From: Beroe forskalii
Lineage: Eukaryota; Ctenophora; Nuda; Beroida; Beroidae
DNA: 64,000 nucleotides
NCBI GenBank assembly: GCA_011033025.1
Contig: WFMF01000031.1
Coordinates: 744,001-808,000, forward strand
Direction: 5' to 3'
How positions within the stretch are numbered: the stretch's first letter is position 1; the number at the start of each line of letters is the position of its first letter. This document shows positions 1 to 33,546 of the stretch, piece by piece. The notes under the pieces are model-generated. The model worked only from the letters and a program-made list of their open reading frames with translations. It did no database searches and was not told the origin of the DNA. The position numbers were made by a program, and so were the translations under genes.

Positions 1-907
1 GTCTTCCAAATTGCAACTCTTTCTGTGATACCAAAAAATTTACTTTAATTCTGATATTTCTTATTGAAAGTCTTGAAGTATCAGAAAGCCAGGTCTCCTC
101 GGTGAAAGGAAGGTGGTTTAGGCCTTAGATGACAGGTAGGTGTCTCAGAGCTCAGGTATTTAGGTATTTAGGACAGATAGTGACTGAAAGGCTCTTTTTA
201 CCAGGTTTTTATTGTTGTTCTACATTGTAGATCGAGGTATGAATTTTTTATTTATTATCTTTTACTTTTTAAATGCTATATACCTTCGATGTGATTTATT
301 TAATGAAATTTTTCCATTTCACTTTAATTTATTAGATTGCCTAAGGCGCCCATTTGATTAACCAACAGACTATCAATAGGTTTAAGAATACATAATATGG
401 TTGGATGTGCCCTTCAGACAGATTGATAATTATCTAAAGATAATATTATCTATAGAAACTTTACTAGTCAAAACATGAACACATAATTCTTCGCTAGGAA
501 TGTGGAAGTCGGTATGAGTTGGTATGGTAGCTACTGTTTGCATTTGGAATGGTCATTTTCCAAGTTAAAAGACAGGGAATGTCCGTCGGCCCATATGCTG
601 GCAGTGGGTATTTTGCTGACTTAGCTGGCTTCCTGCATAGTGTACCCTTGCGGTATACCTACTTGGCGCTTGAAATTGATATTCAAAAACAGTCTGTTGT
701 AAAATTAGCTGATTCGGGCACACCAACTCCACATGTGACATTTCTGAACGTGAAAATGTAATCTTGTGAAACAAATCTTTACACTGAAGGGTAGCCTATC
801 ATTAATATTTATAAATATATTTGATATGATTTGATTGTAAAGTGCCGAAAAATTTATTAAACGTTGTTTCTCTATTAAACGTTGTTTCTCTATTCTATCA
901 CTTGGTA
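1..907. other. no gene recognised
   Basis: AT-rich sequence upstream of the first visible INTS3 exon. The best open stretch is about 70 codons at 549-761 on the plus strand. It resembles no family I know and has no clear splice partners. Earlier INTS3 exons must lie to the left of the window or, less likely, be unrecognised here. A short duplicated motif, TTAAACGTTGTTTCTCTA, occurs twice near 857-893. Confidence 0.5.
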
Positions 908-1708
908 TTACCATAGCTTCATCCTGGGTCCAATCCCCCCCCCCCTGAATTTTTTAACTCCCCCCTTGCCAAAACCTCCCCCCTGAATTTTCAAAATCCG
1001 CCATCCCCCCCCTTTTGGGCATCCCACCCCTGAATTTCAAAAATTCGACCAACCCCCCACCAAAAACTTCGAAAATTTTTCTAAAATATGTCCATCGAGT
1101 TGATTACACAAGTATCAACCGAAATTATGGACTAAATGACAAGATTAAAGTATGTGAACTGTGTTATATCTGACAGATAGATGTAAAGAACAAATCAGGC
1201 AGGAAATTTAGTCTATTTTAAACTTTTACACATAATAACATGATATTTCTAATACCTGAAATGGTATTGAAGTTCACTTTTTATGTCAATTAATTCTTAA
1301 ATCTATAGGTAAAGCTTTTAAGTGACACTTGTCAGGGATTCATGGCATAAAATCTAGCCTCAGGAATATTGTCAGCACAATATAAAATCATAGATAAGCT
1401 GATATCCCTTGAAAATGGCAAGCAATTGTAGCATCACAGTGATATGGCAGTCTTACAAAAGGAAAGCGGGGTCTGGGGGCGCAGCCCCACATCAGGGGTC
1501 TGAGAAAAAATATTTATCACGGACATAGGATTTTCATCTCAAATTTAGAAATTCTTCTGCCAGATCCCAATCCCCCCCCTTAATTTTTCACTCCCCCTTC
1601 GGTTCAAATCCCCAGAATCATTGAAATTGGGCCAACCCCCCACCTACCTTATCTGACCCAAAATCTTCATCCCCCCCTTTTCTTAGGGGGGGGATGAAGC
1701 TATGGTAT
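908..1708. mobile_element. ~800-bp terminal-inverted-repeat element, C-rich interior
   Basis: The left end reads ATACCATAGCTTCATCC (908-924) and the right end its exact reverse complement (1692-1708). Next to the ends are poly-C tracts of 7-10 bases, in C-rich lines at 935-1060 and 1565-1690. No transposase reading frame is present, so this looks like a non-autonomous DNA element. It ends about 35 bp before the INTS3 exon acceptor at 1743. The interior also contains a GGGGGCGCAGCCCC-like palindromic motif near 1477, related versions of which appear near 13370 and 52480. Confidence 0.6.
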
Positions 1709-1743
1709 TACTCTTTCAACACTTATTTCACCTCTACCTGCAG

Positions 1744-4700
1744 GTTCCCCTCCATCACGGCATCTTCCAACTCCTCTCCATCCTAACCAAAGACAAACGA
1801 CCCCGGATCTGGAAGTTCCTGTCTGAGTTCTACAACGTGGAACCCAGAGTGGGATACCATTTGCTGTACTACCTCTACAGTAGGGCGCAGCTCGACTTGT
1901 ACTCAGGTAACACGGGATTTAATTGTTTATATCGAAATGTGGTTATCCTGATTTAGTGAAATTTGAAAAAAAATACAATGCGAATATGAACAATCTTGAC
2001 ATGAAAGTAACATAGAAGCTGTAAATAACAACTTCCAACTTAAACATTTTACTAAACTCTCAACACCCCAGAGTTCGCGAGTTACACGGCAGCGGGTAAC
2101 CTAAAGTCGTGTCTGACGGAAGATCTGCGGATCTGTCAGGAGGAAGACAGTCCGGCAACCTTCTACCGGATCATCCCGGACATATACCTCAAGTTCCCGG
2201 CTGTTACCACTGGAAACGCTAACTTGCTCCACCTAATCGTGTCCTGCATTGACTCACAACAACTCCACACCATCATATGTGAGTGATGGAGTGTTGTCAT
2301 GGTGTTCTCAGGGTGTTGTCAAGGTGTTGTACTGTTGTCAAGGTGTTGTCTGCTGTTGTCATGCTGTTGTCAAGGTGTTATCAGATCTTGTAATTGGTAA
2401 TTGTCAGCTGGGAAACAAACTTCAACATTGTCTAATGTCTACTTGTTGCCCCTCAGGGAAGACTCACTCTTCCTCTCTCCCTCAGGCAATGTTATGAGCA
2501 AGAAGATGAAGATCTTCAACGTACGCAGCATCAGTTCTCTCCTCCGGACCACCTTGGAGTGGGAAACCTTCGAGCAGTACTGTGTTTGGCAGCTCCTCTC
2601 AGCCGAGAGCGTTCCTTCTGAGAGTGTTATTGATGTGCTCAAAGACATCAAGGACACGCACCACTTCGAACTCTTCAGTTCCATGCTCATCTTCCTCAAG
2701 TCTGTCAAACCCACGGAGAAAGTCGTCAAGAAGATCATATTCCTGCAGAACTTTGAAAATCAGCTGGTAAGATTTATCATCCAATTTGAATCGTTAATAC
2801 CGCCTTATTGAGTACTATCACTAAGAATCATGCCGTATCAAATGACATGAATATTCCCTTCAAAGTTTGTGTGCCATTCCATTTCCTTTATCATTATGAA
2901 GGACATCAGTTGAAGCATCTTATGAAGCCTCTTATGACCCATCTCTTGAACTTATACATGCCTCTTAGAATCATCCAGTTATGGTAAAGAACGATCTCCT
3001 ATCACCTTTTCACTGTTTCAGGTTGTTCCTATCACGGTGTGGTGGATTGATAAGTACGGTGAAGGGGTGCTACGGATTATCGAGGGGTTCATTGGCGCTG
3101 CCGTGTCTACGATGGACGACAAGAGGCTAAACATCCTCGTACAGTTCGTCGAGACGATCTGTCAGGTAAACTCCTTGGCTTCTCCTCGTCTTATATGTAC
3201 TTATATGCATCTTAATGCACAGTTATTATAATATCGACATCGATAGCAGCCAGAATGCAAGTTGGCCATTTTTGACACTTAAAGGCTTCTGTGCAGTGAA
3301 AAAGGCATCCCAGATGGTTGGAAACAGTCTTATATGAAAGAACTCATTGATATCTATCATTTGCAACAAAAATTATCAAAATCCGACCTTGCGTTGAGAT
3401 TTTATGAGGTTAAAACCACCTAAAAAGTCGCTTTCGATTTGTGACATGCGACTCGATTTTCCCTCACAAAAGAGCTCATAACTCAAAAACTAAAAGAGAT
3501 ACAGCCTTGGGACCTATCTCAAAAATTCGAGAAGACCCTCTTACATAAGAAGAGTCTTCACTGGAAAGGTCAAGTCCTTCGTGGCCCGGTTGAGGTTATC
3601 GAAGGCGGTGTACACGCGCGCGTAGACCGGCCTTCTTAACCTCAATATCCAACACAGAAGAGAAACCAATCCTACACCAAACTGTAGTACCCATGGCTGC
3701 TACAAGTTGACATGGATAGATCCTGGCTACCTGCTTTACTTTTCCGTGGTCTGGTCAAAGAGGCGGTGTACGCGATGGCCGTAGACGACCTATTATTCCC
3801 AGAGGAAGAGAGCCTGACCTGAAGTTGTCTTACCAACTTGTCGTACCCATGGTAACTACAAGTTGGAGGCATTAAACAGGTCCTACCTCTTTTCGGTGTT
3901 CCTCAGGGGTTAATCTTAGGCCGTTTTCCGAAAACCGGGTTTTCGGATGTCATGACACAAATTTAGCCTCTCAAGACCACAACAGAAGCCAATGAAAACA
4001 TATTTTTGTTACCAAGATGAAGCTGAAACTGTCAAGGATCACCTCAAACCAAAATTTTGCACAATGGGATGAATTTGTGGCTCTCAGGAGAGGTTAAGCG
4101 ATGTCCTCCCGGGAATTTCATCGTAAAAATTTGGCCTTGTTTTTGCCTCAAATGAACAACGCAAGGTCAAAAAACTCCCAACTTTGAACCAAGGAAGTAT
4201 ATTCTGACCTCTTGATTAAGATTACATTTCTTTTAAGAGGACTGAAGCACCTCCATGAGGTTAAAATGGCTAAAAACTGTAAAATCCAGGTTTTCAGATG
4301 TCGCGACACAGTTTTAGCCTCAAGACAGCAACAAAAGCCAATGAAAACAGATTCTTGATGGCAAAATGAAGCTGAAACTGTCTAGGATCACCTCAAACCC
4401 AAATTTTTCACAATGGGATGGATTGGTGGCTCTCAGGAGAGGTTAAGTGACTTCCTCCCGGGGATTTTATCAAAAATTCAGGCCATTTTTTAGCCTCAAA
4501 TGGACAACGCAAGGTCAAAAACTCCCAAATTTGACCAAGGAAGTATATTTTGACCTTTTGATTGAGACTGATAATTTTGGGAGGACTCAAACACTTCTTT
4601 GATGCTTGAAGTGGCTAAAAACAGTAAAATCCAGGTTTTTGAGATGTCGCGACAAAATTTAGCCTCAAAACAGCAACAAAAGCAAGTAAAGACATATTCT

Positions 4701-7700
4701 TGATACCAAAATGAAGCTGAAACTGTCTAAGATCACCTCAAATCAAAATTTGGTCGTATGAAAGTATACCAATGACCCCCTGCTGACCCCCTACTGACCC
4801 CCTGCTGACCCCCTACTGACCCCCTACTGACCCCCTGGTGAACCCCTACTGACGCCCTACTGACCCCTGGTGAACCCCTACTGACCCCTACTGACCCCTG
4901 CTGACCCCTATTGACCCCTGCTGACCCCCTACTGACCCCCTGGTGAACCCCTGGTGACCCCTGGTGAACCCCTACTGACCCCCTACTGACCCCCTACTGA
5001 CCACTTCCTGATCATAATTCTAACATATATCATGAATGTTTTAAAAGCATTTAAAATAGCACTCAGCCTTATAATGACGCTTTATTGGTCAATTGCCACT
5101 GATCAAGGCACCCTAAACGCACGCTCAAAACATAAACGAGTCAGTTATATTTTTCATGTTCGTTGGTGTTATTCTGTTATTCAAGTCAGTCAAATAAGTC
5201 AGGACAGTCACGTTAGTCAAGTTATTCAAGTCATTCAAGTCAGTTCTGTCAGTCAGGTCAGTCAGGTCGGTCAAGTTGGTCAATTTAGTCAAGCCAAATT
5301 AGTCAAGCCACTCAAGTCAAGTTACTTTGATCAAGTCATGTCATGTCAGTCATGTCAGTCATGTCAGTCATGTCAGTCATGTCAGTCATGTCAGTCATGA
5401 CAGTCATGTTTGTCATGTTAGTCATGTCAGTCATGTCAGTAATGTCAGTCATGTCAGTCATGTCAGTCATGTCAGTCATGTCAGTCATGTCAGTCATGTC
5501 AGTCATGTCAGTCATGACAGTCATGTTTGTCATGTCAGTCATGTCAGTCATGTCAGTCATGTCAGTCATGTCAGTCATGTCAGTCATGTCAGTCATGTCA
5601 GTCATGTCAGTCATGTCAGTCATGTCAGTCATGTCAGTCATGACAGTCATGTTTGTCATGTTAGTCATGTCAGTCATGTCAGTCATGTCAGTCATGTCAG
5701 TCATGTCAGTCATGTCAGTCATGTTTGTCATGTCAGTCATGTCAGTCATGACAGTCATGTTTGTCATGTTAGTCATGTCAGTCATGTCAGTCATGTCAGT
5801 CATGTCAGTCATGACAGTCATGTTTGTCATGTTAGTCATGTCAGTCATGTCAGTCATGTCACTGACATGACTGACATGACAACATATTAAAACATGACTG
5901 TCATGACTGACATGACTGACATGATGACATGACCGACATGACTGACATGACTGACATGACTGACATGACTGACATGACTGACATGACTGACATGACTGAC
6001 TGTCATGACTGACATGACTGACATGACTGACATGACTGACATGACTGACATGACTGACATGACTGACATGACTGTCATGACTGACATGACTGACATGATG
6101 ACTGACATGACTGACATGACTGACATGACTGACATGACATGACTTGATCAAAGTAACTTGACTTGAGTGGCTTGACTAATTTGGCTTGACTAACTTGACC
6201 AACTTGACCGACCTGACTGACCTGACTGACAGTACTGACTTGAATGACTTGAATAACTTGACTAACGTGACTGTCCTGACTTATTTGACTGACTTGAATA
6301 ACAGAATAACATAACGAACATGAAAAATATAACTGACTCGTTTATGTTTTGAGCGTGCGTTTAGGGTGCCTTGATCGAGTGACAATTGACCAATAAAGCG
6401 TCATTATAAGGCTGTGTGCTATTTTAAATGCTTTTAAAACATTCATGATATATGTTAGAATTATGATCAGAAGTGGTCAGTAGGGGGTCAGTAGGGGTCA
6501 GTAGGGTTCACCAGGGGTCACCAGGGGTTCACCAGGGGTCACCAGGGGGGGTCAAAGAGGGGTCAGCAAGGGGTCAGCAGGGGTCAGTAGGGGGTCAGTA
6601 GGGGTTCACCAGGGGGTCAGTAGGGGTTCACCAGGGGTCAGTAGGGGTCAGTAGGGGTCAAGCAGGGGGTCAGTAGGGGTCAGCTGGGGGGGGTCAGTAG
6701 GGGGTCAGCAGGGGGTCATTGGTATACTTTCATACGACCCAAAATTTTACTCATTAAGATTTGTTGGCAGATCTCAGGTGAGGATAAGTGTCTTCCTTCC
6801 CATGTTTTTATCAAAAAATTGGATTTTGTGTTAGCCTCAAATCCACAACGCAAGGTCACAAATTCCTAAATTTTGACCTAAAAGGTGGATTTTGACCTCC
6901 AGATCAAGAAAAAAATACTTTTGGAGGACTAAAACACTCCTTTGATGCATTAAATGGCCAAAAGCTGTGAAGTTAGGCATTTTTTGCTCAAATCAGCCTC
7001 ATATTTAACCTCACAGTTGCCACAAATAAGGTAATATCATGTTCAAAAAAGTTTTTTGGTCACCACAGATGTCCAAACTAACTTTTTATGTGAAAAGATT
7101 GGCATTATAACCTTTTTGAAAAAATGATGTATAAATAAGCCAATGTCACAAATTCCTTACATTCTGGCTGCTATCAATGACGAGTGATTATTAAATCAAG
7201 TGCAAATTTAATGTGCAATTAAGTGCAAATTTGATGTAATATTTGATGTAATATTTGATGTGATAACTGCAAATTTAATGTTGTTGTTGTGAAACCCACG
7301 GTGGGGCTGGCAATGTGCCGCAATATTATATCAATATTACACAATACAAGTTTAACAATCCAACAAAAACATAAACTCATAAAGCACTGATTTACGTATT
7401 TAAGGAGTTCATCTTTATGTAATATGTCGTTTAAAAGCATATGAAATACAGATATTACCAAGACTGCAGATCAATAATAACAAAATAGATAGAAACTGTC
7501 AAAACATAACTTCACTGAAAAACTCGCAAAACAATTTATTGCAAATCAAGAACAATACGGATAAAAAAACTGTCAAACATAAATCTTCTAAAAAACTCGA
7601 TAAACCGTGATTTTTTAATTAGTTATGGCAAAACGGTTCATATCAGGGCGCTGGCAAGCGCCCGCAGCGCAAGTTAGCACACACCCTAGGGCATCTGCCC

Positions 7701-10179
7701 GAAGGGCAGATGCCCTCGGCCCGAAGGGCCGAGGGCAGCCGAATTGGCCAGCAGTCTCGACCCGAAGGGCCGGGACTGCTGGCCAGACACTCCAAACAAG
7801 CCGATAGTACCAGCATGAAGTGCTAAGAGTGGTAGTGTAATCGTTTTTCAAGTATTGAAGAACTTGTTTGCCAGCGCCCATTATATAAAAATTCAGTGAT
7901 TTGCGAAAATCGCGATTTTCGAGTCGTGTTTTCAAGATGTTAATTTCAGTTGTTGATCACGAAAATTTGCACAGGTTTAGTCCATCACATGATTAAGAAA
8001 CCCTGAAAATTTCATGAAAATCGGCCGTACGGTTTTAGCAGGAAAAATTATTGAAAAATGCCTAAAATCACGGAAATTAGTGTTATCGTCGTCTCTCTCG
8101 AAACTACGACAGTTTTTATAAATCACTTTGTGGGAAGACCAAGACAGATATTGAAATCAATCCAAAAGTATCGTAAACTTTGCCATAGGGCACGTGTAGT
8201 AGGCTATATGGCAATTTTGATATCAAGTTGCTTAATTAGATAATTGGTCAATTAAACCAATTATCGCTTATATCTCGGCTCAGGAGGGCGATAGCGCCTC
8301 AAATCTAACGATAAACCAAACTATGGCATAAATTGTATTTAGAAATTAATATTAGAACTGTCGTGACAACTTTCTTAATTAGATAATTGGCCAATTAAAC
8401 CAATTATCGTCAATTTCACAGCCTAGGAGGACGATAGCGCCTTAAATCTAACAGTAAATCAAACTATGGCATGAATTGTATTTAGAAAGTAATACCGAAA
8501 TTTTCATGACAACTTTCTTAATTAGATAATTGGCCAATTAAACCAATTATCGTCAATATTTCAGCCCAGGAGGGCGATAGCGCCTTAAATCTAACGGTAA
8601 ACCAAACTATGGCATAAATTGTATTTAGAAAGTAATATCAAAATTTTCATGACAAATTTCTTAATTAGATAATTGGCCAATTAAACCAATTATCGTCAAT
8701 ATTTCAGCCCAGGAGGGCGATAGCGCCTCAAATCTAACGGTAAACCAAACTATGGCATAAATTGTATTTAGAAAGTAATATCAAAATTTTCATGACAACT
8801 TCCGTAATTAGATAATTAGCCAATTAAACCAATTATCGTTTATATCTCGTCTCAGGAACATGGTATCGACTTAAATCTAACGGCAATAGAAACTTTGTTC
8901 CCTTGTTCAACACCAAAAAGATTGATATGGTATGACAAAAAACAATTGAAAATTGTGTAGGTTCCGCTCAGCAACGGAAAAATCTCAACAAATCACCAAA
9001 TTTTCGATTGCTTTTCAAATGTAAAAATACAGATGCCACGATTGTGAACTATTTACCCGAAATTCAAATGCAAATACGATTCTTCATCCAAGTTTGATTT
9101 ATTCTAAAACAAACAGCTTGGTCCTAACCCATACCTCCATATGTATGCACATGGGATTGTCATTGATGAAGACGCGCATTTTACAGTGCGTGCAATTTGC
9201 TTTTATCAATCTGAATCCATCCATGTGTACATATTATATGGGTTATTTGCGCGGCCCTCGGGCCTCGACGTAAGAATATATTACTTTGATATAATATTAA
9301 CAAGTCCTCTATTTCTGCCCTCAGGCTGTCGAACAGAATCACGTGATATTTGAACAAGCGAATCTCTGGCGCCAGATACAATCAAGTTACAGTTTTATCT
9401 CCCAGTCTGTCAAAGATAACTGCACAATCGTTCAGGGGTGAGTAGCTGGAAAATAGCCATTGAGTTACTAAGTTGAACGGGGCGCCAAATCAAATTCTCT
9501 GAGATGAGTTGAAACGGCAAAAGTTGAAAGTTTTTCGTCTCCTTTCATTTCATATACGATTTCATAGCGCACCATAGTTTTCTCATTCAAAGTTCACCTT
9601 TGACAGAACACTCAAAAAATTTTCATTGTTGAACTTGAAGTTAAATGACGACGGGTGAACTTCCAAAACATACAAAATATCTTCCCCAACGTGTATTATC
9701 CAGCGACACTTTGGGCACTTTCCTGCACACTCCTTTAAGATCTATCCAAGCTCATTACACTCTTTCCTGCACACAAACACTCCACGTCTTGCATATTTGT
9801 CTCTTCCAACCTCTTCCTGCTTCGATACTCCACATTTAGTAAGGGTTCGAAAGCCAAAATCGCATTTGTTTCTATTAAATTTCAATCTAACCTAGTCAGC
9901 TTGAATTGTAACCCTGATCAGTTTCAGTTTCACTAATCATTGAAATGAAAGTGTAACTATCCCCCGATCTATAATACAGCTCAACATCATCGTATTGCTC
10001 ACTAACTGATCCATGATTCCGTTCAGGGAATGATGAGGGAGGGAGGGAGTGGGAAGGGCGCCACGACCCGGTCCCAGTCCGACTCGGACCACGCCCCCTC
10101 AGACTCAGACGACGACGAACGACCCAAGCTTTCCAAACGGAAACGGGAAGCGTCCGTCCTGGACAGTGATGACGAATAG
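1744..10179 (+). CDS. INTS3: Integrator complex subunit 3, C-terminal part (INTS3/SOSS-A)
   Basis: INTS3 is a scaffold subunit of the nuclear Integrator complex (snRNA 3' end processing, promoter-proximal termination) and also the SOSS-A subunit of the single-strand DNA sensor. Six exons chain in phase: 1744-1906, 2072-2278, 2486-2766, 3022-3165, 9325-9437 and 10038-10179, giving about 349 residues and a TAG stop. Diagnostic stretches are VGYHLLYYL, LEWETFEQYCVWQLL and the tail SKRKREASVLDSDDE, which matches the acidic Lys/Arg-rich end of animal INTS3. An upstream acceptor at 10026 would also keep the reading frame of the last exon but does not fit the phase of the preceding exon. The intron 3166-9324 is filled with repeats. 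The N-terminal and middle parts are not on this strand here; the N-terminal exons are at 20953-22660 on the minus strand. A conserved stretch between the last two exons was not found and may be missing or diverged. Confidence 0.9.
4752..6739. mobile_element. 2-kb foldback (giant palindrome) element
   Basis: The two halves are reverse complements over about 1 kb each. The outer ends are GGTCGTATGAAAGTATACC (from 4752) and its complement ending at 6739. Inside each end is a GACCCCCTACT/GACCCCTGGTGA-type short repeat, then a unique arm (around 5030-5160 and 6300-6440), then a 9-bp array, CATGTCAGT on the left half and its complement on the right. The symmetry centre is near 5870-5900. The arms differ in copy number and small indels. 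All long reading frames here are artefacts of the 9-bp periodicity. No transposase is present. Confidence 0.8.
5333..6150. repeat. 9-bp minisatellite, two head-to-head arrays
   Basis: About 58 units of CATGTCAGT-type sequence run from 5333 to about 5863. The reverse complement (GACTGACAT) continues from about 5864 to 6150. Variants such as CATGACAGT and CATGTTTGT occur at intervals of about 12 units, suggesting a higher-order repeat. Each half can pair with the other, forming the core of the foldback. Confidence 0.85.
7270..7330. repeat. single end of an interspersed element (also at 41.7-42.0 kb)
   Basis: The segment GAAACCCACGGTGGGGCTGG with following CAATGTGCCG is an inverted match to 42005-42037 and a diverged direct match to 41740-41770. 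It marks a fragment of the same dispersed element, lying in the INTS3 intron. Confidence 0.5.
7615..8870 (+). mobile_element. element with GC hairpin end and ~145-bp core tandem repeats (copy A)
   Basis: The left part begins GGGCGCTGGCAAGCGCCC and carries stacked hairpins such as GGGCATCTGCCC-GAA-GGGCAGATGCCC. Next comes a conserved segment (GAAAATTTCATGAAAATCGG at about 8008) and about 4.5 tandem units of roughly 145 bp, each with AGATAATTGGCCAATTAAAC and GGAGGGCGATAGCGCC. A related copy in opposite orientation lies at 42.8-46.99 kb. The hairpin end plus tandem core resembles the non-autonomous Helentron/'pearl' type described in some invertebrates, but I see no rolling-circle protein, so the class is an inference. 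Confidence 0.55.
8871..9324. other. INTS3 intron end, nothing recognised
   Basis: AT-rich intronic sequence before the acceptor at 9324. No repeat or gene was recognised. Confidence 0.5.
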
Positions 10180-10509
10180 GTCGCGGGATCTGACGCTAGG
10201 CACTGCAACAACGTCCATTTTCTGTCCTAGCACTTTAACAGTTCGTTATCACATAATATTATTTTTAAGTAAACATAGTCGGACTGTCGTGTGTCAATTG
10301 CTTCATTTTCAGTAGATCATCATCAAATTCAAAGCTGAAGTGATATTTTGACGTCTTTGAAGTGTTATTACCGCCTTCACATTTTATTATCATAAATTAG
10401 CATAAATTAAGATATTTTGATTTGGCAAAAACAGTAACACATTTCAGTTACACTTTGAGTTCTATTTGCATTCTTCTTTTAAAAATCTGTTTGCTTATAC
10501 TGCCATGTT

Positions 10510-10515
10510 AATAAA
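10510..10515 (+). promoter_or_regulatory. possible polyadenylation signal of INTS3
   Basis: An AATAAA hexamer lies about 330 nt downstream of the INTS3 stop codon. It is the first canonical signal on this strand after the gene. Chance occurrence in AT-rich DNA is quite possible. Confidence 0.35.
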
Positions 10516-10626
10516 TATAACGAATAATGGTCCAGTTTGAGTTAAACCAAAACATTTTATCTGTATTGTAACATATGGCATCGTGTTACACATACAGTCA
10601 CTATTGCCAAGGTGTCTCGACATTTT

Positions 10627-10659
10627 CAGGCGCGGCGTATTAGTATTACGCCGCGCCTG
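10627..10659. repeat. perfect 13-bp-arm GC hairpin
   Basis: CAGGCGCGGCGTA (10627-10639) and its exact complement (10647-10659) flank a 7-nt loop about 450 nt after the INTS3 stop. GC-rich arms in AT-rich surroundings could be a transposon end. A 3' processing or terminator-like function is not supported. Confidence 0.6.
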
Positions 10660-11370
10660 GGTCCTTTTTAATTTTTTCTGTGCGTGATAGTTTATACTTA
10701 TAGCGCGCAATGTACTTTCGTTTCAATGCAACGCGCATAAATTTCAAAGAAGCACTCAAGCGCGGTGTAACACGCCTCGCCTCAATTTCAAAAGTTCGAG
10801 ACACCACTGATGACTGACCACGGTTTTATTGATTGCAGACTCTGTTTCATCCTTTTCCGAGCATCAGCTTATAGTATTGGAAAGCACTGACAATGACATA
10901 CTCATAGAATATGTTGTTTGTGATTCACTTTCGGAATGAGTGATCTCGTACTCGTAGTCTTCTTTATCATTTATCTTAATGATAATGATAATTCCTGAGA
11001 AAGTATTCGTTATCACATTGACTGATTGACAATCAAATCTAATTTGTTATTTGAGCTCGACTATAATTTTTCAGCGGCAATCGTTGAACTGTTATTTTTA
11101 CTTTTCACACTTATTAACATTTTAAAGACGAGCATTTCACTTTTCAAATACAGCGTCATCATGATTGAAATTGCGACCATCATTAAAATTCATATGAAAT
11201 GAATACTTAAACTTCCTGGGGCAGTTCGCGTCGAACTGCATTTTCCGAATCCGCGGCGCCGGCGTTATTAGACCTAGACATATATATTGTCAGACGTTGT
11301 CGACCTTCGGCGGACTCGCGCGCGCTTCACTGCTTCAGCTTCGCGGCAAAGGGATCAGACAACGTCTGAC
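10660..11370. other. intergenic, nothing recognised
   Basis: AT-rich intergenic sequence. Around 11265-11360 a short near-inverted pair (CAGACGTTGTC at about 11290 and GACAACGTCTGAC at about 11355) suggests another small hairpin element. Confidence 0.4.
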
Positions 11371-12592
11371 AAGGGTATCTCTCCCATATAAACGGCTCTG
11401 AGTGACGTCACAGATCTAAACGTCAATTTTTCTGTATCCTAAACCTAACCAAAACCCTAACCTTAATCCTAACCGGCTAACCCTAACCCTAACAAATCTT
11501 AACCCCAATCCTGACCCTAACCCTAGTACTTAAAGCGCTAGGTGCGCTTAATTATATTTTTCTGAGTGACGTCATTGTCATAGATAATGAAGGCTCCCGT
11601 TTATATGGGAGACCTACCCTGACAAGTCATATAAATAACATGCATATAGTTATACGTCGCGTCATGACCTGCAAAATTAGTAATTACGTTTTCTGACATT
11701 ATTTCGTTGTTTGTCGGCCGTTGACAGACTTGCTAAACAGTACACGTATATCCCTGATTGCTTCGCGCGGCGCGCACACACCTAAGCCCGCATGGGTGTG
11801 TGTACGTTGCTAAACACGTATATCCCTGTGTGGCTCGCTCGGCGCGCTTCCCCAGGGAAGCGCGCGGCGCGTACACAAACCTATGCGGGCTTAGGAAGTG
11901 TGTACGCGCCGCGCGCTTCCCTATGCCCTACGGGATCGGAAACACCTGTGCTGGGGAAGCGCGCCGCGAGCCACGAGCCAAACAGGGATATACTTGTCGT
12001 ACGATGTAAAACCCACTGACGCCAGCTGCGAAGCGGCTGGCGTCGATGAGAATCAGCGCCGCGCGCGCGGCGCTGATTCTCGGTATCTCTCCCATATAAA
12101 CGGCTCTGAGTGACGTCACAGATCTAAACGTCAATTTTTCTGTATCATAAACCTAACCATAACCCTAACCAAGGTACGTCTCCCATATAAACGGGAGCCT
12201 TCATTATCTATGACAATGACGTCACTCAGAAAAATATAATTAAGCGCACCTAGCGCTTTAAGGACTAGGGTTAGGGTCGGGATTAGGGTCAGAGTTGTTA
12301 GGGTTAGGGTTAAGGATTAAGGTAGGGTTTTGGTTGGGGCTATGGTTGGGTTTAGGATACAGAAAAATTGACGTTTAGATCTGTGACGTCACTCAGAGCC
12401 GTTTATATGGGAGAGATACCCTAACCAAAACCATAACCTTAATCCTAACCCTAACCCTAACAAATCTTGACCCTAATCCTGACCCTAACCCTAGTCCTCA
12501 AAGCGCTAGGTGCGCCTAATTATATTTTTCTGAGTGACGTCATTGTCATAGATAATGAAGGCTCCGGTTTATATGGGAGACCTACCTGATTC
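11370..12592. mobile_element. cluster of short TIR elements with telomere-like cores
   Basis: A unit of about 240 bp is bounded by TCTCCCATATAAACGG and its complement ATATGGGAGA. It contains the palindrome TGACGTCA near both ends and a degenerate CCCTAA-type tract in the middle. A full copy lies at about 11379-11614. Another at about 12178-12415 is in reverse orientation (TTAGGG sense) and abuts partial copies at 12088-12177 and 12416-12575. The same end sequences recur in both orientations, so the telomere-like tract travels with the element and is not a chromosome end. Confidence 0.75.
11640..12087. repeat. GC-rich inverted repeat between TIR elements
   Basis: GC-rich segment with CCTAAGCCCGCATGGGTGTG near 11780 and a near-complementary ATGCGGGCTTAGGAAGTGTG at about 11883. 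It also contains GCGCGGCGCG palindromes and the hairpin CGCCAGCTGCGAAGCGGCTGGCG at about 12020-12043. Open frames here are overlapping on all frames and show no family resemblance. Confidence 0.55.
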
Positions 12593-14045
12593 TCGAGAGG
12601 GTCTGTCAACGCCAAACAAGAATTGACAGACCCTTGCCTTGTGATAAAGTCAGTTTCTTGATAAACATGATACGTTAAATTGAAAGCAAATTATTCTACT
12701 CATACTTACAGACTGCTTGGATAACCAAATATTCAAGGGCCATTTGATCCTGGAAATGATATTTTAATACTGATAATTTTTCGTATTAATGCTTTTTTCC
12801 AGCAGCCCCAAGAAGCCAGATTTTATACTTTTCTTGCATCTCCACTTCAAAAGTTTTCTTTCAGTCAATATTCAATTAATTTTATTTAAATTTATCAATC
12901 AATGACAGCTATGATTGAAGTATTGTGTCACTATTTTTTGTTTTTTTAAATTGTAAATAGGTGTTCGTTGCATTGTACTGCCATAAAGATGGAGGATCCT
13001 TTAATTGTAAATCTACGTTATTGTTTATGTTATGCACTAAATTATTTCTAAGTCAATGTTATAAGCAATCAAGTTCAACATATTTATTAAATTATTAGCA
13101 TATTAGTTTTATCCTTTCAGTGACACAATGTTTATGTAGTAGAAATAACAAATAATAATTATGATATTAAGAGTTGTCATGAATGGATGAAAATCAAGCG
13201 CTTTTGCTGGGTGGCATCCCCCAGAAGCCAGACATTAGGGGACAATGGCATTGGTGCTGAATTAGAACAATTGAATTTATACCTACTCATTTGCGGAATA
13301 TTTAAAAATACTTTAATTATAAAACAAATTGAAGAGATATGGTGTCTGAATGAATGCAAGGTCAGGGGCAGGGGCACAGCCCCAAGAAGCCAGATGTTCT
13401 GAGAGAACGAATTCAAATTTTATTAGAATTTCAACTCTCGTATGTTTGTGTTGCAATGAATGAGCCCGTGAATGACTCTATCTTTTGTGGAAAAAATATG
13501 TGGTAGAAAAATTTGCAACATAGATCTGTGCAATATAGCATTTATGAAATACCAAAAGTAAAAAAGTTCTGGTGAAACAGAAGGTAGGTTTTTCTAGGAT
13601 ATTTTTCTTATTTTGGCTGGAAAAATGTAGTTCCTGACAGGACCAGAAATTGAACAATGGGCCAAATTTTTTCCAAATCCAATCTTACAGTCATCATTTT
13701 TGATGTGGTATTCAGTCTTTATAAATTTAACCATCAAAGTGCAATTTCATGTTTGAAGCTCTTATTAGTAGAGACACAGGGTTTTAAACTCTTGCTTTAT
13801 GCACTTCCCATAATCTAATTTTCATGAAACTTGTTGATATCATGCACTTTGATGATCATAAGTGAATTGCCAAAATTTTTTAAAAAGCTTGTTTTATCCT
13901 TAAATTCTATGGGTGGTTGAATTTTTCCTACTTCATTCTATGTAGCTCTATGTTTGTTTCAGCAACAAATTATCATAATATTCATGCAATGTTATAGTCA
14001 TGATGAATTTTTTTTTCATTAAAGCAAGGTAGAAGATTAAAGCAA
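12593..14045. other. intergenic, nothing recognised
   Basis: AT-rich intergenic DNA up to the gap. The dispersed motif CCCCAAGAAGCCAGA appears at about 12807 and 13381 (variant near 13211), and its complement lies near 52480. It indicates old copies of one short repeat. No gene. Confidence 0.5.
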
Positions 14046-14145
14046 NNNNNNNNNNNNNNNNNNNNNNNNNNNNNNNNNNNNNNNNNNNNNNNNNNNNNNN
14101 NNNNNNNNNNNNNNNNNNNNNNNNNNNNNNNNNNNNNNNNNNNNN
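14046..14145. other. assembly gap, exactly 100 N
   Basis: A run of exactly 100 N is the usual placeholder for a join of unknown length. The right flank is inside the 24-bp satellite and the left flank is unique AT-rich sequence, so the contig orientation across it is not established by sequence. Confidence 0.97.
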
Positions 14146-17100
14146 CATGCCTTGACACCAGTGTCAGCATATTCCTTGACACTAGTGTCAGTGTATGCCT
14201 TGACACCAGTGTCAGCATATGCCTTGACACCAGTGTCAGCATATGCCCTGAAACAAGTGTCAGCGTATGCCTTGACACCAGTTTCACCGTATGCCTTGAC
14301 AATTTGACATCACTATCAGCGTATGCCTTGACACCAGTGTCAGCTTATGCCATGACATCATTGTCAGCGTATGCTTTGACACCAGTGTCAAATTATACAT
14401 TGTGTTGTCCTTGACACCAGTGTCAGCGTATCATTCTTGACACCAGTGTCAACGTATGCCTTGACACCAGTGTCAGCGTCATGCCTTGACATCAGTGTCA
14501 GCGTATGCCTTGACACCAGTGTTTGTATGCTTGACACCAGTGACAAAAGCGTATGCCTTGACATCAGTGTCAGCAAATGCCAGGACACCAGTGTCAGCGT
14601 ATGCCTTGACACCAGTGTCAGCGTATGCCTTGACACCAGTGTCAATGGTCATGCCTTGACACCAGTGTCAACATATGCCTTGACACCAGTGTCAGCGTAT
14701 GCCTTGACATCAGTGTCAGTGTATGCCTTGACACCAGTGTTCTCGTATGCCTTGACACCAGTGTCAGACTATGCCTTGACACCAGTGTCAGCGTATGCCT
14801 TGACACCAGTGTCAGCTTATGCCTGACATCAGTGTCAGTGAATGCCTTGACACCAGTGTCAGCTTATGCCTTGACACACCAGTGTCGGCGTATGCCTTGG
14901 AATCAATGTCAGGTTGTCTTGACACCAGTGTCAGCGTAAAGTTAATACACCAGTGTCTAAATATGCCTTGACACCAGTGCGATTGAATTTGCCTTGACAC
15001 CAGTGTCAAACTGTTTAATGCCTTGACATCAGATGTCAGCGAAAGTTGACATGGGTGCCCAGAGGCATTTTGACAATTGGTGTCATGATGCCTTGACATC
15101 AGTGTCAGCGTTGCCTTGACACCAGTGTCAGCGCATGCCTTGACACCAGTGTCAGCGTATGCCTTGACACCAGTGTATGCTTGGGCAGTGTGCCTATGAC
15201 ACCAGTGTCACCCTTTGCCTTGACACCAGTGTCAGTTAGTGTCAGTGTCACAAAATGCTTTGACATCAGTGTCTGGTATGCCTTGACATCAGTGTCAGCG
15301 TATGCCTTGTGTCAGTGTGCAAATGCCTTGACATCAGTGTTACAATAACAAGTGACATCAGTGTCGCAACAATGCCTTGACATCTGCTTGACTATTTTAT
15401 GTATTTGTCCTGTAATGTCATGATGCTTGCACCACGTGATAGGGCATGCCTATGACACCAGTGTCAGCGTGAGCTGACACCAGGGTCAGGGTATGCTTTC
15501 CAGTGACTGGAATGATGAACATGGAGTGAACTATAATTAATAACAGTGTCTATAATAGCAGCCTTGATAAGTGTCAGCAATTATGCCCTGGCCCTTGACT
15601 ATAGCCGGTGTCTGGGGTGAGGGGGTGCCATAAAACCCCAGTGTCTAGAATGCCTTGACACCAGTGTAGCTTGAACTATACCCTTTAAAATCCCTGACAT
15701 AAGTGTCAATATGCCTTGACACCAGTGTCAACGTATGCCTTGACATCAGTGTCAGAGAGTTGAGACATCAGTGTCAACAAATGCCTTGACACCATTGTTA
15801 TATGCCTTGACACCAGTGTCAGCAATTATGCCTTGACACCAGTGTCCGTATGCCCTGACACCAGTGTCAGCGTATGAAACGGAATCAGTGGTGCTTATGC
15901 ATTGACACATATCGTGTTTGCCTTCACCGTGTCCATTCATGCCACGCCATCATGGAGCATTAGGCATTGAATTGATGTCGTTGATCCGCACATGATAAGC
16001 GCCTTGTGCATGTACCTATACTGTGTACAGCGAAATGTCGATACATGGGTGCTTGTGTAAATTTGTATAAAATGACCAAAACTCCAACATTAGATCAGGA
16101 TGCAAATTTATTAAGTCTATAGAATTATAGGGAACCAGTTAAAATAGATTTTACTCCTCAAGCCATATTTCTATGGTCGGAAAGTGTACATTTTTGTATA
16201 TACTTGTACATTTTTGTACATACTGTGTTTTTGTACATATTCAGATCACTGTGGGTAAAATGTACAAAAATGTACAAAAATTACGTTGGCCCCCCCCCCT
16301 AGTTGAATAAAACATAAACAGCGAATGCCTTGACACCAGTTGCAGCGTAAGCCTTGACACCAGTGTCAGCGTATGCCTTGACACCAGTGTCAGCGTATGC
16401 CCTGACACCACTGTCAGTGTATGCCTTGACACCAGTGTCAACGTATGCCTTGACACCAGTGTCAACGTATGCCTTGACACCAGTGTCAGTGTATGCCTTG
16501 ACACCAGTTTAAGTGTATGCCTTGACATCAGTGTCAGCGACGGCCATGACACCAGTTTAAGCGTATGTCTTGACATCAGTGTCGACGAATGCCTTGACAC
16601 CAGTGTCAGCGTATGCCTTGACACCAGTGTCAGCGTATGCCTTGACACCAGTTTCAGCGTACGCCTTGACACCAGTGTCAGCGTATGCCTTGACACCAGT
16701 GTCAGCGTATGCCCTGACATCACTGTCAGTGTATGCCTTGACACCAGTGTCAACGTATGCCTTGACACCAGTGTCAACGTATGCCTTGACACCAGTGTCA
16801 GCGTATGCCTTGACATCAGTGTCAGTGAATGCCTTGACATCAGTGTCAGAGTATGCCTTGACATCAGTGTCAGCTCATGCCTTGACACCAGTGTCAGCGC
16901 ATTACTTGACACCAGTGTCAGCGTATGCCTTGGCATCAGTGTCAGCGCATGCCTTGACACCAGTGTCAGCATATGCCTTGACACCAGTGTCAGTGAATGC
17001 CTTGACATCAGTGTCAGCTCATGCCTTGACACCAGTGTCAGCGCATTACTTGACACCAGTGTCAGCGTATGCCTTGGCATCAGTGTCAGCGCATGCCTTG

Positions 17101-19835
17101 ACACCAGTGTCAGCATATGCCTTGACACCAGTGTCAGCGTATGCCTTGACATCAGTGTCAGCGCATGCCTTGACACCAGTGTCAGCATATTCCTTGACAC
17201 AAGTGTCAGCGTATGCCAAGACATTATGGTGTCAGAGTATGACTTGACACCAGTGTCAGCGTATGCCTTGACATCAGTGTCAGCGAATGCCTTGACATCA
17301 GTGTCAGCGAATGCCTTGACACCAGTTTCAGCGTACGCCTTGACACCAGTGTCAGCGTATGCCTTGACACCAGTGTCAGCGTATGCCTTGACACCAAGTG
17401 TCAACGTATGCCTTGACACCAGTGTCAGCGTATGCCACGACATCAGTGTCAGCGAATGCCTTGACATCAGTGTCAGCGAAAGCCTTGACATCAGTGTCAG
17501 CTCATGCCTTGACACCAGTGTCAGCGTATGCCTTGACACCAGTGTCAGCATATGCCTTGACACCAGTGTCAGCATATGCCTTGACACCAGTGTCAGCATA
17601 TTCCTTGACACCAGTGTCAGCATATGCCTTGACACCAGTGTCAGCGTACGCCTTGACACCAGTGTCAGCGTATGCCTTGACACCAGTGTCAGTGTATGCC
17701 TTGACACCAGTGTCAGCGAATGCCTTGACACCAGTTTCAGCGTAAGCCTTGACACCAGTGTCAGCGTATGCCTTGACACCAGTGTCAGCGTATGCCTTGA
17801 CACCAGTGTCAGCGTATGCCTTGACACCAGTGTCAGCGTACGCCTTGACACCAGTGTCAGCGTATGCCTTGACATCAGTGTCAGCGACGGCCATGACACC
17901 AGTTTAAGCGTATGCCTTGACATCAGTGTCGACGAATGCCTTGACACCAGTGTCAGCGTATGCCTTGACACCAGTTTCAGCGTACGCCTTGACACCAGTG
18001 TCAGCGTATGCCTTGACACCAGTGTCAGCGTATGCCCTGACACCACTGTCAGCGTATGCCTTGACACCAGTGTCAGCGTATGCCTTGACACCAGTGTCAA
18101 CGTATGACTTGACACCAGTGTCAGCGTATGCCTTGACACCAGTGTCAGCGTATGCCTTGACATCAGTGTCAGTGAATGCCTTGACACCAGTGTCAGCGAA
18201 TGCCTTGACACCAGTGTCAGCGAATGCCTTGACACCAGTGTCAGCGTATTCCTTGACACCAGTGTCAGCGTATGCCTTGACACCAGTGTCAGCGTTTGCC
18301 TTGACACCAGTGTCAGCGTATGCCTTGACACCAGTGTCAGCGTATGCCTTGACACCAGTGTCAGCGTATGCCCTGACACCACTGTCAGTGTATGCCTTGA
18401 CACCAGTGTCAACGTATGCCTTGGCACCAGTGTCAGCGTATACCAGTGTCAGAGTACGCCTTAAAACCAGTGTCAGCGTATTCCTTGACTTCACTGTCAA
18501 CGTTTGCCTTGACACCAGTGTCAGCGTATGCCTTTGACACCAGTGTCATGCCTTGATGCCTTGACACCAGTGTCAAGCGTATGCCTTGACACCAGTGTCA
18601 GCGTATGCCTTGACACCAGTGTCAGCGTATGGTGTGACACCAGTGTCAGCACGAGTGGTTCCCTTGACACCAGTGTCAGCGTATACCTTGACACCAGTGT
18701 CAACGTATGCCTTGACACCAGTGTCAGCGTAGGCCTTGACACCAGTATCAGCGTATGCCTTGACACCAGTGTCAGCGTATACCGTGACACCAGTGTCAAC
18801 CTATGCCTTGACACCAGTGTCAGCAATCACTTGGTGTCAGTGTCAGCGTGTCCAGCCTTGACACCAGTGTCAAGTATGCCTTGACATCAGTGTCAGCGTA
18901 TGTCTTGACACCAGTGTCAGCGTTGTGTCAGGAATCAGTGTCAGCGTATGCCTTGACACCAGTGTCAGCGTATGCCTTGACACCAGTGTCAGATAGACTG
19001 GTGCCAAGAGAGACTGATGCCAAACCTTTGACACCAGTGTCAACGTTTGCCTTGACACCAGTGTCAGCACATGCCATGACACCAGTGTCAGCATGTGCCT
19101 TGAGACCAGTGCCCTGACACAAGTGTCAGCATATGCCCTGACACCGGTGTCAAAAAATGCTTTGACACCAGTGTCAGCGTATACCAGTATATGCCGTGAG
19201 ACCAGTGTCAACAAATGCCTTGAAACCAGTGTCAGCGCATTACAGCTTGACACCAGGATGCCAGATTGACAGTGTAAGAGTATGCCTTGACACCAGTGTC
19301 AGCGTATGCCTTGGCATCAGTGTCTTCGTTTGCCTTGACACCAGTTTCTACGTATGCCTTGACAACAGTTTCAGCATATGCCTTGGCACCAGTGTCAGCA
19401 TATGCCTTGACACCAGTGTCAGCATATGCCTTGATACCAGTGTCAGCATATGCCTTGACACCAGTGTCAGCATATGCCTTGACACCAGTGTCAACATATG
19501 CCATGACACCTGTGTCAGCATATGCCATGACAGTTGACACCAGTGTCAGCGTATGCCTTGACACCAGTGTCCGCGTATGCCTTGACACCAGTTTCAGCAT
19601 ATGCCTTGACACCAGTGTCAGCGTATGCCTTGTCACCAGTGTCAGGATATGACTTGACACCAGTGTCAGCATATGCCTTGACACCAGTGTCAACATATGC
19701 CTTGACACCAGTGTCAGCGCATGCCAGCTTGACACCAGTGTCAGAGTACGCCTTAAAACCAGTGTCTGCGTATGCCTTGAAATGGACATTAGTGTTAGCA
19801 TATGTCTTGATATCAGTATCAAGCGGAAGTGGTCT
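14146..19835. repeat. 24-bp satellite with internal dyad (TGACACCAGTGTCA)
   Basis: About 5.7 kb of 24-bp units: the 14-bp imperfect palindrome TGACACCAGTGTCA plus a 10-bp linker (GCGTATGCCT). Because 24 is a multiple of three and the unit lacks stops in several frames, very long spurious reading frames arise, for example about 728 codons on the minus strand at 16241-18427. Segments 14.4-15.9 kb and 18.5-19.3 kb are degenerate; 16.3-18.5 kb is homogeneous with higher-order blocks (for example similar blocks at about 16320-16840 and 17860-18430). A non-repeat island lies at 15.93-16.31 kb. Confidence 0.9.
15930..16315. other. unique island inside the satellite
   Basis: This segment lacks the 24-bp unit. 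It contains several copies of GTACATTTTTGTA and the complement TGTACAAAAATG around 16185-16275, forming small inverted repeats, then a poly-C run. It may be an inserted element. No gene. Confidence 0.55.
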
Positions 19836-20640
19836 CAAGCACGAGTGGTGTCAAGCTCGAGTAATGTAAAGCACAAGTGGTGTCAAGAATGAGTGGTGTC
19901 AAGTACGAGTGGTTTCAAGTACGAGTGGTGTCAAACACGAGTGGTGTCAAACACGAGTGGTGTCAAACACGAATGGTGTCAAGTACGAGTGGTGTCAAGT
20001 GCGAGTGGTGTTAAGTTCGAGTGGTGCCAAGCACGAGTGGTGTCAAGTACGAGTGGTGTCAATCACGAGTTGTGTCAAGCACGAGTGGTGTCAATCACGA
20101 GTTGTGTCAAGCACGAGTGGTGTAAAGCACGGGTGGTGTCAAGCAGGAATTTACAGGAATTTTACAGGAATTTCAAATATAATTTATAACAAAAGCATTG
20201 TTATACAAATCTCACATACAATTCAGCAGTATGTTAATTACAGTGATGTGTGAGTTGGTGATTATACGAGTGGTGTCAAGCCCCAATCCGGTGTCAAGTC
20301 AGAAAAGTGTCAAGGAAAAGTGGTCTCAAGGAAAATTGGAGTCAAGTAAAAACGGTGTCAAGGAAAAGTGATGTCAAGTAAAATCGGTGTCAAGGAAAAG
20401 TGGTGTCAAGGGAAAGTGGTGTCAAGGGAAAGTGGTGTCAAGGAAAAGTGGTGTCAAGCAAAAGTGCTGTCAAGCAAAAGTGATGTCAAGTAAACGTGGC
20501 GTCAAGCAAAAGTGGCGTAAAGCAGAAGTGGTGTCAAGCAAAAGTGTAGTCAACTGTCAAGCAAAAATGATGTCAAGATAGACTGGTGTCAAGAGAGTCT
20601 GGTGTCAAGAGAGACTGGTGTCAAGCCTTTCTGCCGTCAG
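19836..20640. repeat. 16-bp minisatellites (GTGTCAAG core)
   Basis: The sequence changes abruptly to 16-bp units. First come GAGTGGTGTCAAGCAC-type units (19840-20140); after a short unique piece come AAAGTGGTGTCAAGGA-type units (20270-20600). Both keep GTGTCAAG, part of the 24-bp satellite on the left, which suggests a common origin. The open frames here are periodicity artefacts. Confidence 0.85.
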
Positions 20641-20952
20641 GGCTCTGAAAACACTGATAGTCATGTGATTGATGATTTGTTTCACACTCTGCGAACAATG
20701 CAACATGAACTCTAGAAGCTATGAGTGGATGAATACCATATCACCTGCATTCCTCGTTCCTCATCGGCAGAAATTCGCATCTCGGGCTCAGCCCGAGAGG
20801 GATGCCTATCTTTACGCGAATACGAGATGTATAGTGTATACCTCTCATGCTCAATAAGTTGTACGCGCGTGAGTTTAGGGGTGCATCTTACGATTTCGGG
20901 CTAGCACCCACGAGGGATATACTAATTAGAAATGCGAGTGGAAGGGACTAAC
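20641..20952. other. short non-repetitive stretch after INTS3 exon
   Basis: Intron of the minus-strand INTS3 fragment, next to the satellite. It contains the hairpin CTCGGGCTCAGCCCGAG at about 20790-20806. No further INTS3 exon could be recognised here. Confidence 0.5.
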
Positions 20953-22660
20953 CTTGATCATAGCTTCGGTGAAGAGAACGTTGGAACTCTTGATGTCTCC
21001 TCCTTTGATGCAACTCATCATGAGGACAAAGAGCTGGTCACCTCCAACTACGTTACTGAGGGGGAGAGCGCGTTTAAGCTTATTGGACACCCCGTGAATT
21101 TAAAGAATTTTAAAATAAAGTGCTCTGTTCAAAGAAGTATGACGGAGAAACTGAAGCTCCCAAAAAATGGACATACATATTTGTCCGTTAAACGCATGTT
21201 TTTTGAATGAAATGTATGTTGCATAATGTACAATGTTATACACTGTACAACACTGTACATTGTACATCACTAACCTAGTGAGTATCTGCTCTAGTATCCA
21301 CACCAGCTGTACAATATTATACACTGTACAATGAACATTAAATACTAACCTAGTGAGTATCTGCTCGAGTATCCACACCAGCTGCATCTTGACGGGCATG
21401 AGCAGCTTCTCGAAGCGAGTGTTCACCAGCTGGGTGAGTCTAGTGAGGACCAGCACCATGTTATCACGTGACACGATGGTCAGGTCGCGCCATGCCTTCG
21501 CAGCTTGGCTCTGGTCTGTCAGCATCACGTACAGTAGGGCCAGACATACCTGCAAAAGGGGGGCGGGGTTGTAAAGGGTTTATCTTCCGGAGTGTATGCA
21601 TTGAGCTGTGCAATAAACAATGAGGCCGAAGGCCGAATTGTTGATTAACACGATTAATGCATTAACTTTGGCCTCGGTCGATAGATACTATTTAACCATG
21701 AGCCAGATGGACCAAATCCACAACTAAGAAATTTCAGAATGAATCTCATTTCTCAATGTCAGCAACAAAATATTGTTTGATATGAAGTCAACATAATATA
21801 TGATAAGCAATAATTTGCAGAGATACATTCGAAATATTTCATATAATATATTTGCACTATAATTACTTAATTAAGCAGGAATCAGGGAATGAATTATACC
21901 ACAAACCCGTTTGTGATTGTCAGGGTTGGTTGAGGTGAGGAGGTTTAGTTTGTCTAATGCTTCTCTTTCAGATAGACCTGATAAAATAAGCGTGTCAAAA
22001 TCATATCGTGTTTCTATTTAAGTCACTTATTGATTTTGAGGTTGAATCATGAATTCCCGAAAATTGTCTAGATTTATGCCATTGGGGTTTGCAATGACAA
22101 GTTGTTTCAGACAGATACAATATCCTCAGATCTTATTCTGACATGGCAATCAACTGACATAACCACTTAACTGACATTCCTGAGATCACCTGAGAGCGTT
22201 TGGATGAGGAAGTCTTTGTCGGAGAGGAATTCTTTGTCAATGTCATCATTAACTTCAAGTTGATTCAGCGAAAACAAACATGACTTGACTGCTTCCATCA
22301 ACTATATAAAGGATCGAACTTGAAAAGCAATTTTAAATAGAATGTTATTTTATCCTCTCACTCAATCACTGCAATATTAGTTATATCTAACACCCCTCTA
22401 CCAATCAAGTTATCATTATTGGATTGAATGGTTGGGCTTCAACATTGGATTTTTCCTGAAGTCATCACTTATTTGAGGTTATCTGAATGTGAAGAAACCG
22501 TGATTCAGTATGTAAGAAATTGAACTTGGAAAGGAAAGCTTCTTAAACGAAATAGAAAATCTGCCAATATAATTAAAACAAGGATTCTAAAGGAATTTGT
22601 ACTTACAATCAATAAATTAATTTGAAATACGGTGTCGCAATACACATCAGCTGATAATCC
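20953..22660 (-). CDS. INTS3: Integrator complex subunit 3, N-terminal part
   Basis: Exons in reading order on the minus strand: 22607-22660, 22190-22301, 21907-21977, 21350-21549 and 20953-21055, all joined by GT-AG in consistent phase. The first in-frame ATG is at 22298, giving 161 codons, so the first exon would be mostly 5' UTR; its frame is nevertheless open. Matches to animal INTS3 include LSEREALDKLN, AKAWRDLTIVSRD, QLVWILEQILTS and CIKGGDIKSSN. The next exon should continue leftward but only satellite and the gap follow. The C-terminal third of INTS3 is on the opposite strand at 1744-10179. The acceptor of the first exon is 37 nt downstream of the NOP9 stop codon, so INTS3 has almost no room for a promoter of its own unless it lies inside NOP9. 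Confidence 0.9.
21271..21312 (-). repeat. duplicate of an INTS3 exon 3' edge in the intron
   Basis: The last ~35 bases of the 21350-21549 exon, its donor site and the start of the intron are repeated with one mismatch, starting at 21271 (the original begins near 21346). GTACA-rich spacers (TACACTGTACAATG) accompany both copies. It is an exon fragment in an intron, with a usable donor but no obvious acceptor. Confidence 0.7.
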
Positions 22661-33003: not shown

Positions 33004-33546
33004 TCAAGACATGGTAGCCTCAGCCCTCACATACTCTCCCACATCCGCCTGATGAAACACTACTATCGTATTAGGGTCCGTGGTCTTGCATTCCACCGTT
33101 GACTTGGCAGCCACCCCAAACCCTAGCGGTAAATCTGACATGTTATACACCACCACCCCATCGTATCGTTCTGTCCCAGCTGATATCCGACCCAGCCCTG
33201 CTTTAGTTACGTTATTACCGTACAGGAACTGCTGTTCTGCCCCGGGCTTTAACCAGACTTTCTGTTTAGCGTACGATGAGAGGAAGTCTAGGGCCGTGAT
33301 GTGGAGTTTAAACTTCTCCGTTTTGGAGAACTTCCCGAATAACGTACCGAGGCTGATCAGTTCTTTGCGGCCGATGTTCGTTGATTTCTTCATGATCGTC
33401 TCGCTGACGTAGTAGACCTTTTCCTTGTGGAATCGGAACACGTAGTTCCCATCACTTCGTTCTAACAGGAGTTTAACGTTCTCGCCCATGTATTTAGCGA
33501 GCTTCTCAAACAGGGACTTAGCTTCTTCTTCTGTTAGGGGTCTCAT
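33004..33546 (-). CDS. NIP7: 60S ribosome biogenesis protein NIP7
   Basis: NIP7 is a conserved nucleolar pre-60S factor with an N-terminal fold and a C-terminal PUA RNA-binding domain. The coding region is one uninterrupted exon of 180 codons plus TGA, exactly the family length. It starts [19 protein letters not shown] and contains [64 protein letters not shown] and [11 protein letters not shown], all hallmarks. A splice acceptor (GTGCAG) ends 3 nt before the ATG, implying a 5' UTR intron or trans-splicing. An in-frame read-through of the acceptor would add a spurious M-Q-A. No frameshift or truncation. Confidence 0.97.

Follow-up and report, generated by a model that had tools for sequence, protein, structure and literature searches.

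We analysed a window of 64,000 nucleotides from Beroe forskalii (assembly GCA_011033025.1, sequence WFMF01000031.1, positions 744,001 to 808,000), in which the gene for the Integrator protein INTS3 lies in separate parts. WFMF01000031.1 is called C370 below, so that the window is C370:744001-808000 and a window position equals the C370 position minus 744000. The assembly searched comprised 216.1 Mb in 1,134 sequences, the others being given handles of the same kind. A single run of 100 N interrupts the window and separates a left from a right contig, and the following features lie on its two sides (window positions).

1744-10179, plus strand: INTS3 C-terminal exons, human residues about 676-1042
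1744-1905, 2071-2277, 2488-2748 and 3022-3165, plus strand: cores of the C-terminal exons, 3022-3165 placed by eye
10006-10179, plus strand: last coding exon of INTS3, with an acidic/basic tail and the stop codon
14046-14145: 100-N scaffold gap joining the left and right contigs, a join that is most likely wrong
14146-20900: start of the right contig with intron repeats, namely the 24-bp satellite at 14147-19780 and 16/32-bp arrays at 19819-20626
22298-20953, minus strand: INTS3 N-terminal exons, human residues about 60-189, from Pfam, PDB and tblastn
22014-21907, 21549-21349 (Ints3_N) and 21093-20953, minus strand: cores of the N-terminal exons
22320-21851, minus-strand reading: candidate INTS3 first exon (MEAVKSCLFSLNQ...), judged by eye and fitting the start at 22298 given in a preliminary description of this DNA

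INTS3 was identified with Pfam profiles (PF10189 and PF24566), a PDB sequence search and tblastn with human INTS3, with a query that differs very little from PDB 8rbz chain c. The N-terminal exons matched Ints3_N (5.1e-14) and INTS3 in the PDB (1.1e-10), and tblastn placed human residues 60-152 at 21993-21355 on the minus strand. The exon for residues 60-96 was weak when taken alone (tblastn E 0.18), and residues about 153-189 were placed by eye. At 20953 the last N-terminal exon gives way to a gttagt donor. A 75-bp tandem duplication at 21227-21384 spans the end of an N-terminal exon and its donor, giving two candidate donors. No INTS3 exon was found within 14146-20900; the right contig begins inside the satellite, with 6.8 kb separating its start from the last of the N-terminal exons, and in the orientation that a continuation from C642 calls for.

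On the other side of the gap, the C-terminal exons begin at 1744 after ctgcag and matched HEAT_Ints3_C (3.3e-20 and 4.2e-23; the first exon at 5.8e-5, under the family cut-off) and INTS3 in the PDB (3.6e-16). On the plus strand, tblastn aligned residues 676-861 at 1819-2739 and residues 997-1042 at 10048-10176, with a TAG stop directly after 10176. The last coding exon was also weak alone (tblastn E 0.41), but a second sequence, C642, supports it by encoding the same 45-residue C-terminus. The five introns between adjacent modelled exons (1744-3165 and 20953-22014) measure only about 165-360 bp. These searches and the splice sites confirmed the proposal of the preliminary description that INTS3 is split over opposite strands at the gap. 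They also bore out that the two parts are complementary and do not overlap, the middle being absent: residues 190-675 gave no tblastn match in the window, although the poorly conserved linker at about 496-675 could escape tblastn.

The preliminary description had further predicted that the middle exons lie on the plus strand left of the window, and they were found there from C370:739498 by a genome-wide profile search and tblastn. The Ints3_N profile had three matches in the whole genome. One is at C370:739715-740656 on the plus strand (4.7e-116); the other two, both minus-strand, are C642:105388-104564 and the N-terminal exon itself (C370:765552-765313). The modelled middle exons run from C370:739498 to about 741908 on the plus strand, just left of the window, with tblastn matches at window -4511 to -3326. 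A further exon-like stretch to about window -2092 encodes the same peptide in both copies of the middle part, on C370 and C642, with no match made to human.

We then compared the ends of the N-terminal and middle parts. The last N-terminal exon closes with FTEAMIK before the gttagt donor at C370:764953, and the first middle exon opens with VVTSQMTWVV after ttcag in both copies (C370:739498 and C642:105725). Both splice sites are in phase 0. Set against human ...SVLD|ILTEQREWVL..., the protein join showed by eye neither gap nor overlap, the flanks being placed by tblastn. The junction between the two exons appears to be a single intron with nothing missing. Profile searches found both Ints3_N and the C-terminal HEAT-repeat domain, and like INTS3 as represented by PDB 8rbz chain c, PF10189 and PF24566, the gene has its N-terminal, middle and C-terminal conserved parts, with splice sites usable where checked.

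The second copy lies on C642, a sequence of 107,593 bp that carries INTS3 residues about 190-1042 on the minus strand. Genome-wide, HEAT_Ints3_C had four matches, two on the plus strand of C370 and two on the minus strand of C642. Upstream of its first middle exon, C642 extends for another 1.9 kb before it ends (107593). C642:98078-107347 aligned with the reversed C370:758034-738179 in 12 collinear blocks of 79-96% identity, coding and non-coding, with one short extra match off the diagonal at C642:62204. The final 93 bp of C642 matched C370:738207-738112 at 79%, confirming that the two contig ends, C642:98078-107593 and reversed C370:758034-738112, are homologous terminal stretches. Two stretches are present in the C370 copy and missing from the C642 copy.

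C370:742068-745704 (right part, window 1-1704): about 3.6 kb
C370:747238-752967 (window 3238-8967): about 5.7 kb, in the last INTS3 intron

The second of these stretches also contains a fold-back palindrome with arms at window 5167-5380 and 6098-6311 (214 nt, 99%), together with 9-bp and 11-bp arrays.

We compared 10 coding segments of the two copies (2,397 nt) and found 88 nucleotide differences and 0 amino-acid differences, where about 295 replacement differences would be expected without constraint; the zero is partly a matter of choice, since the segments were picked as identical peptides. Outside the segments, a glycine run has 6 residues in one copy and 8 in the other, and there is one likely Asn/Thr difference just past the segment ending APAD, if the exon extends there. 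The comparison covered the copies apart from parts of residues about 495-676 and the 3283-3639 region. Both copies look constrained. Judged from these alignments, they are probably alleles in a very diverse species. A second INTS3 N-terminal part was found neither by the family profile in the 216 Mb nor by DNA search; the N-terminal region used as DNA query returned its own place and copies of a dispersed repeat of about 150 bp.

Taken together, these results make it very probable that an assembly artefact surrounds one ordinary INTS3 gene, combining a wrong scaffold join, a retained overlap and, probably, an internal misjoin of the left contig. As assembled, C370 does not hold INTS3 as one collinear transcription unit; C642 followed by the right contig from window 14146 would give one continuous, collinear minus-strand gene. 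A scaffolding error most likely created the join at 14046-14145. Both contigs are homologous right up to their ends, as an unmerged overlap would lead one to expect.

The artefact most likely arose at the INTS3 intron between human residues about 189 and about 190, which is filled with the 24-bp satellite, a repeat that occurs in both orientations, while the haplotypes probably differ strongly. Here the assembly of the gene would have broken off, leaving the remainder in two overlapping versions, at the right ends of the left contig and of C642. The scaffolder would then have misplaced or misoriented the left contig when setting it next to the contig with the N-terminal exons. On the actual chromosome, the N-terminal contig most likely continues leftward from window 14146 into C642 or an equivalent allele, and the order would be an EXOSC10-like gene, a MORC-like gene, INTS3 on the minus strand and a NOP9-like gene. 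The first two are on C642, of which 1-10000 and 60001-107593 were read (both without N). Beyond 98078 we observed a reverse-transcriptase-like fragment by eye, then a gene with HATPase_c_3 (3.5e-29; MORC-like by eye) and further on a gene with a 3'-5' exonuclease domain (9.4e-6; EXOSC10-like by eye), with no INTS3 N-terminal exons there.

The left contig occupies C370:673761-758045 (84.3 kb) and follows another 100-N gap at 673661-673760. It carries exons for MON2 residues 216-1287 at C370:678030-715836 on the plus strand (found with a MON2 query) and, by eye, one further MON2 exon to about 716.3 kb. The C-terminal part of MON2 (profile positions 525-802) was found only at C170:443438-448210; in the preceding 10 kb we saw a 171-bp tandem array, but neither a MON2 exon nor any N. 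For the N-terminus of MON2 itself, we found DCB-domain matches on C991, C855 and C275, which may belong to related BIG-type genes. Because MON2 is split between the two, at least one of the left contig and C170 is probably misjoined at tandem repeats. This second gene broken at a tandem array supports the artefact reading. A further misjoin inside the left contig is likely, and it would lie somewhere between the 11-bp arrays at about C370:716 kb and the 24-bp arrays at about 738 kb, with no finer placement. A pair of 11-bp arrays at C370:716266-717005, after the last MON2 exon, looks similar by eye to the arrays near the palindrome in the last INTS3 intron. The left contig also carries an MFS transporter (5.7e-20) and, by eye, small membrane-protein genes and an LDLa/GPCR-like gene.

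The 24-bp satellite, a family with members in both orientations, forms arrays at window 14147-19780, at C370:703.6-708.9, 733.2-736.3 and 738.4-738.7 kb, and at C642:106662-107163. Its exact two-unit pattern occurred 107 times forward and 236 times in reverse in the genome, and the reversed control 0 times; among the matches listed, it was placed on C1, C2, C171, C342 and C370, with further C370 arrays near 34-38, 137-144 and 370-373 kb. We compared the 36-mers of five arrays, deriving their directions by hand from the counts and setting the other C370 arrays aside. The array at 733.2-736.3 kb shares 410 of its 2007 distinct 36-mers with the right contig array and 144 of 2007 with the 703.6 kb array, and the right contig array shares 189 of 3810 with the latter. 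The array at 733.2-736.3 kb runs in the same direction relative to INTS3 as the right contig array, and is inverted with respect to window 14147-20145. This similarity would weakly fit a break in or beside it; the short 738.4 kb array has about equal fractions of its 36-mers in common with the right contig array and the 703.6 kb array (55 of 258 and 59 of 258), which weakens the array argument. A physical overlap of arrays recognised by long common words was tried and rejected, the longest common runs among the five being 65-94 bp. Inverted satellite arrays may give an assembler many ways to err.

Several observations weigh against an artefact around a single gene. The synonymous distance between the two copies is 0.18, high for alleles, and would need a hyperdiverse species or a cross. 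Other allele pairs were found in none of five stretches searched (8.0, 9.0, 3.9, 7.3 and 15.7 kb), which gave only dispersed repeats and a paralogue-like match on C1117; about 40 candidates were scored in each search, and the search with the 2-kb C1117 match omitted the query's own place and is hence weaker. The left contig contains no N across its whole length, so that no direct sign of the internal misjoin can be seen. Relative to the gene, the satellites of C642 and of the right contig have opposite directions, and the intron must therefore hold both. Finally, C642:1 as the continuation of C370:738 kb was rejected: the continuation of an exon at C370:737578-737931 was sought in C642:1-10000 and gave no match.

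Four other explanations, not all mutually exclusive with the artefact or with one another, were weighed. The first is a segmental duplication that gave two INTS3 loci, at least one of them incompletely assembled, which is also compatible with a wrong join at the gap. The synonymous distance just given speaks for it, as do the flanks C642:90-98 kb and C370:724-733 kb, neither of which had a second place in the search except for repeats. Against it stand the single N-terminal part in 216 Mb, the homology that reaches the ends of both contigs and the apparent constraint on both copies, and we consider two loci unlikely. The preliminary description had also named a second copy as an alternative: a copy does exist on C642 and in the orientation the gene needs, but it is partial and most likely the other allele.

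A simple misorientation of the left contig alone (673761-758045), as the preliminary description proposed, is quite unlikely. Its view of the join as wrong most likely stands, 100-N gaps on both sides of the left contig make a flip formally possible, and the predicted plus-strand position of the middle exons proved right. The flip itself would restore INTS3, with one giant intron reaching 72 kb or more, placing 65.7 kb with most of the MON2 exons found, the MFS transporter and others inside a gene whose five modelled introns are so short, and on this contig MON2 would still be without its C-terminal part. A turn of the entire 84.3-kb contig was rejected as a candidate, as gene order is not restored; it is insufficient because the contig carries MON2 exons and other genes.

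A real inversion, heterozygous or fixed, with breakpoints in the inverted 24-bp arrays and splitting INTS3 on one haplotype, is very improbable. The mutually inverted arrays at 733.2-736.3 kb and window 14147-20145 with their common 36-mers speak for it, but this similarity is weak given the 738.4 kb array. Beside the INTS3 3' end, C642 has the MORC-like gene and not the MON2/MFS stretch; C642:60001-98077 and C370:694001-738000 match only in repeats, so that one local inversion cannot interconvert the arrangements; and within the chosen segments no amino acid has changed in the split copy. There is only a very slight chance that one haplotype is truly rearranged through these arrays while the other (C642 plus the right contig) is intact, in which case a disrupted form of a core Integrator gene would be segregating. 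A truly split INTS3 whose two pre-mRNAs are joined by trans-splicing has only the arrangement itself and the compatible splice sites in its favour and is extremely improbable, as C642 gives the missing part in the right orientation and at a short distance.

An assembly artefact around one gene also fits error types described in the literature. According to PMC7203741, overlaps between homologous contigs are kept in highly heterozygous species, and linked-read or Hi-C scaffolders do not handle such overlaps, to its authors' knowledge. In PMC8081667, diverged haplotypes are described as a source of false duplications, and inversion errors as having been corrected. By analogy with these accounts, the present case would fit the retained-overlap and false-duplication kinds, with diverged contig ends kept and scaffolding wrong beside them. 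In contrast to the usual retained overlap, the overlap here would end inside one gene, at a satellite intron, so that the gene is cut onto opposite strands. The tool purge_dups calls retained overlaps from read depth, whereas here they were judged from sequence alone. As in the scaffold orientation errors of PMC8081667, the contig next to a 100-N gap faces in the wrong direction with respect to its neighbour's gene; unlike a plain error of that kind, turning the whole contig gives no sensible gene order, and an internal misjoin would also be needed.

Some neighbouring features were observed as well. A NOP9-like PUF-repeat exon at window 23781-23960 (6.3e-4, under the family cut-off) and a NIP7 gene at 33007-33609 (2.1e-26) lie upstream of INTS3, both on the minus strand. 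The exon at C370:737578-737931, just upstream of the INTS3 middle exons, is a lone member of a gene family with 14 places including itself; its open frame of 118 amino acids is shorter than those of 12 of 13 relatives, and it may be a fragment. Window 49695-51731 matches C1117:4900-6933 over 2 kb at 76%, with smaller pieces besides, probably a paralogous gene and not an allele.

If the region is annotated as it stands, INTS3 would be listed as truncated genes, and the duplicate on C642 and the inversion that the annotation would show are both false. The order of C370 from about 716 to 764 kb is unreliable for studies of gene order, inversions and gene loss. Nothing suggests an unusual INTS3 protein, and only the assembled arrangement differs. 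C642 placed beside window 14146 is a testable order, and the split is most likely a matter of assembly, not of biology.

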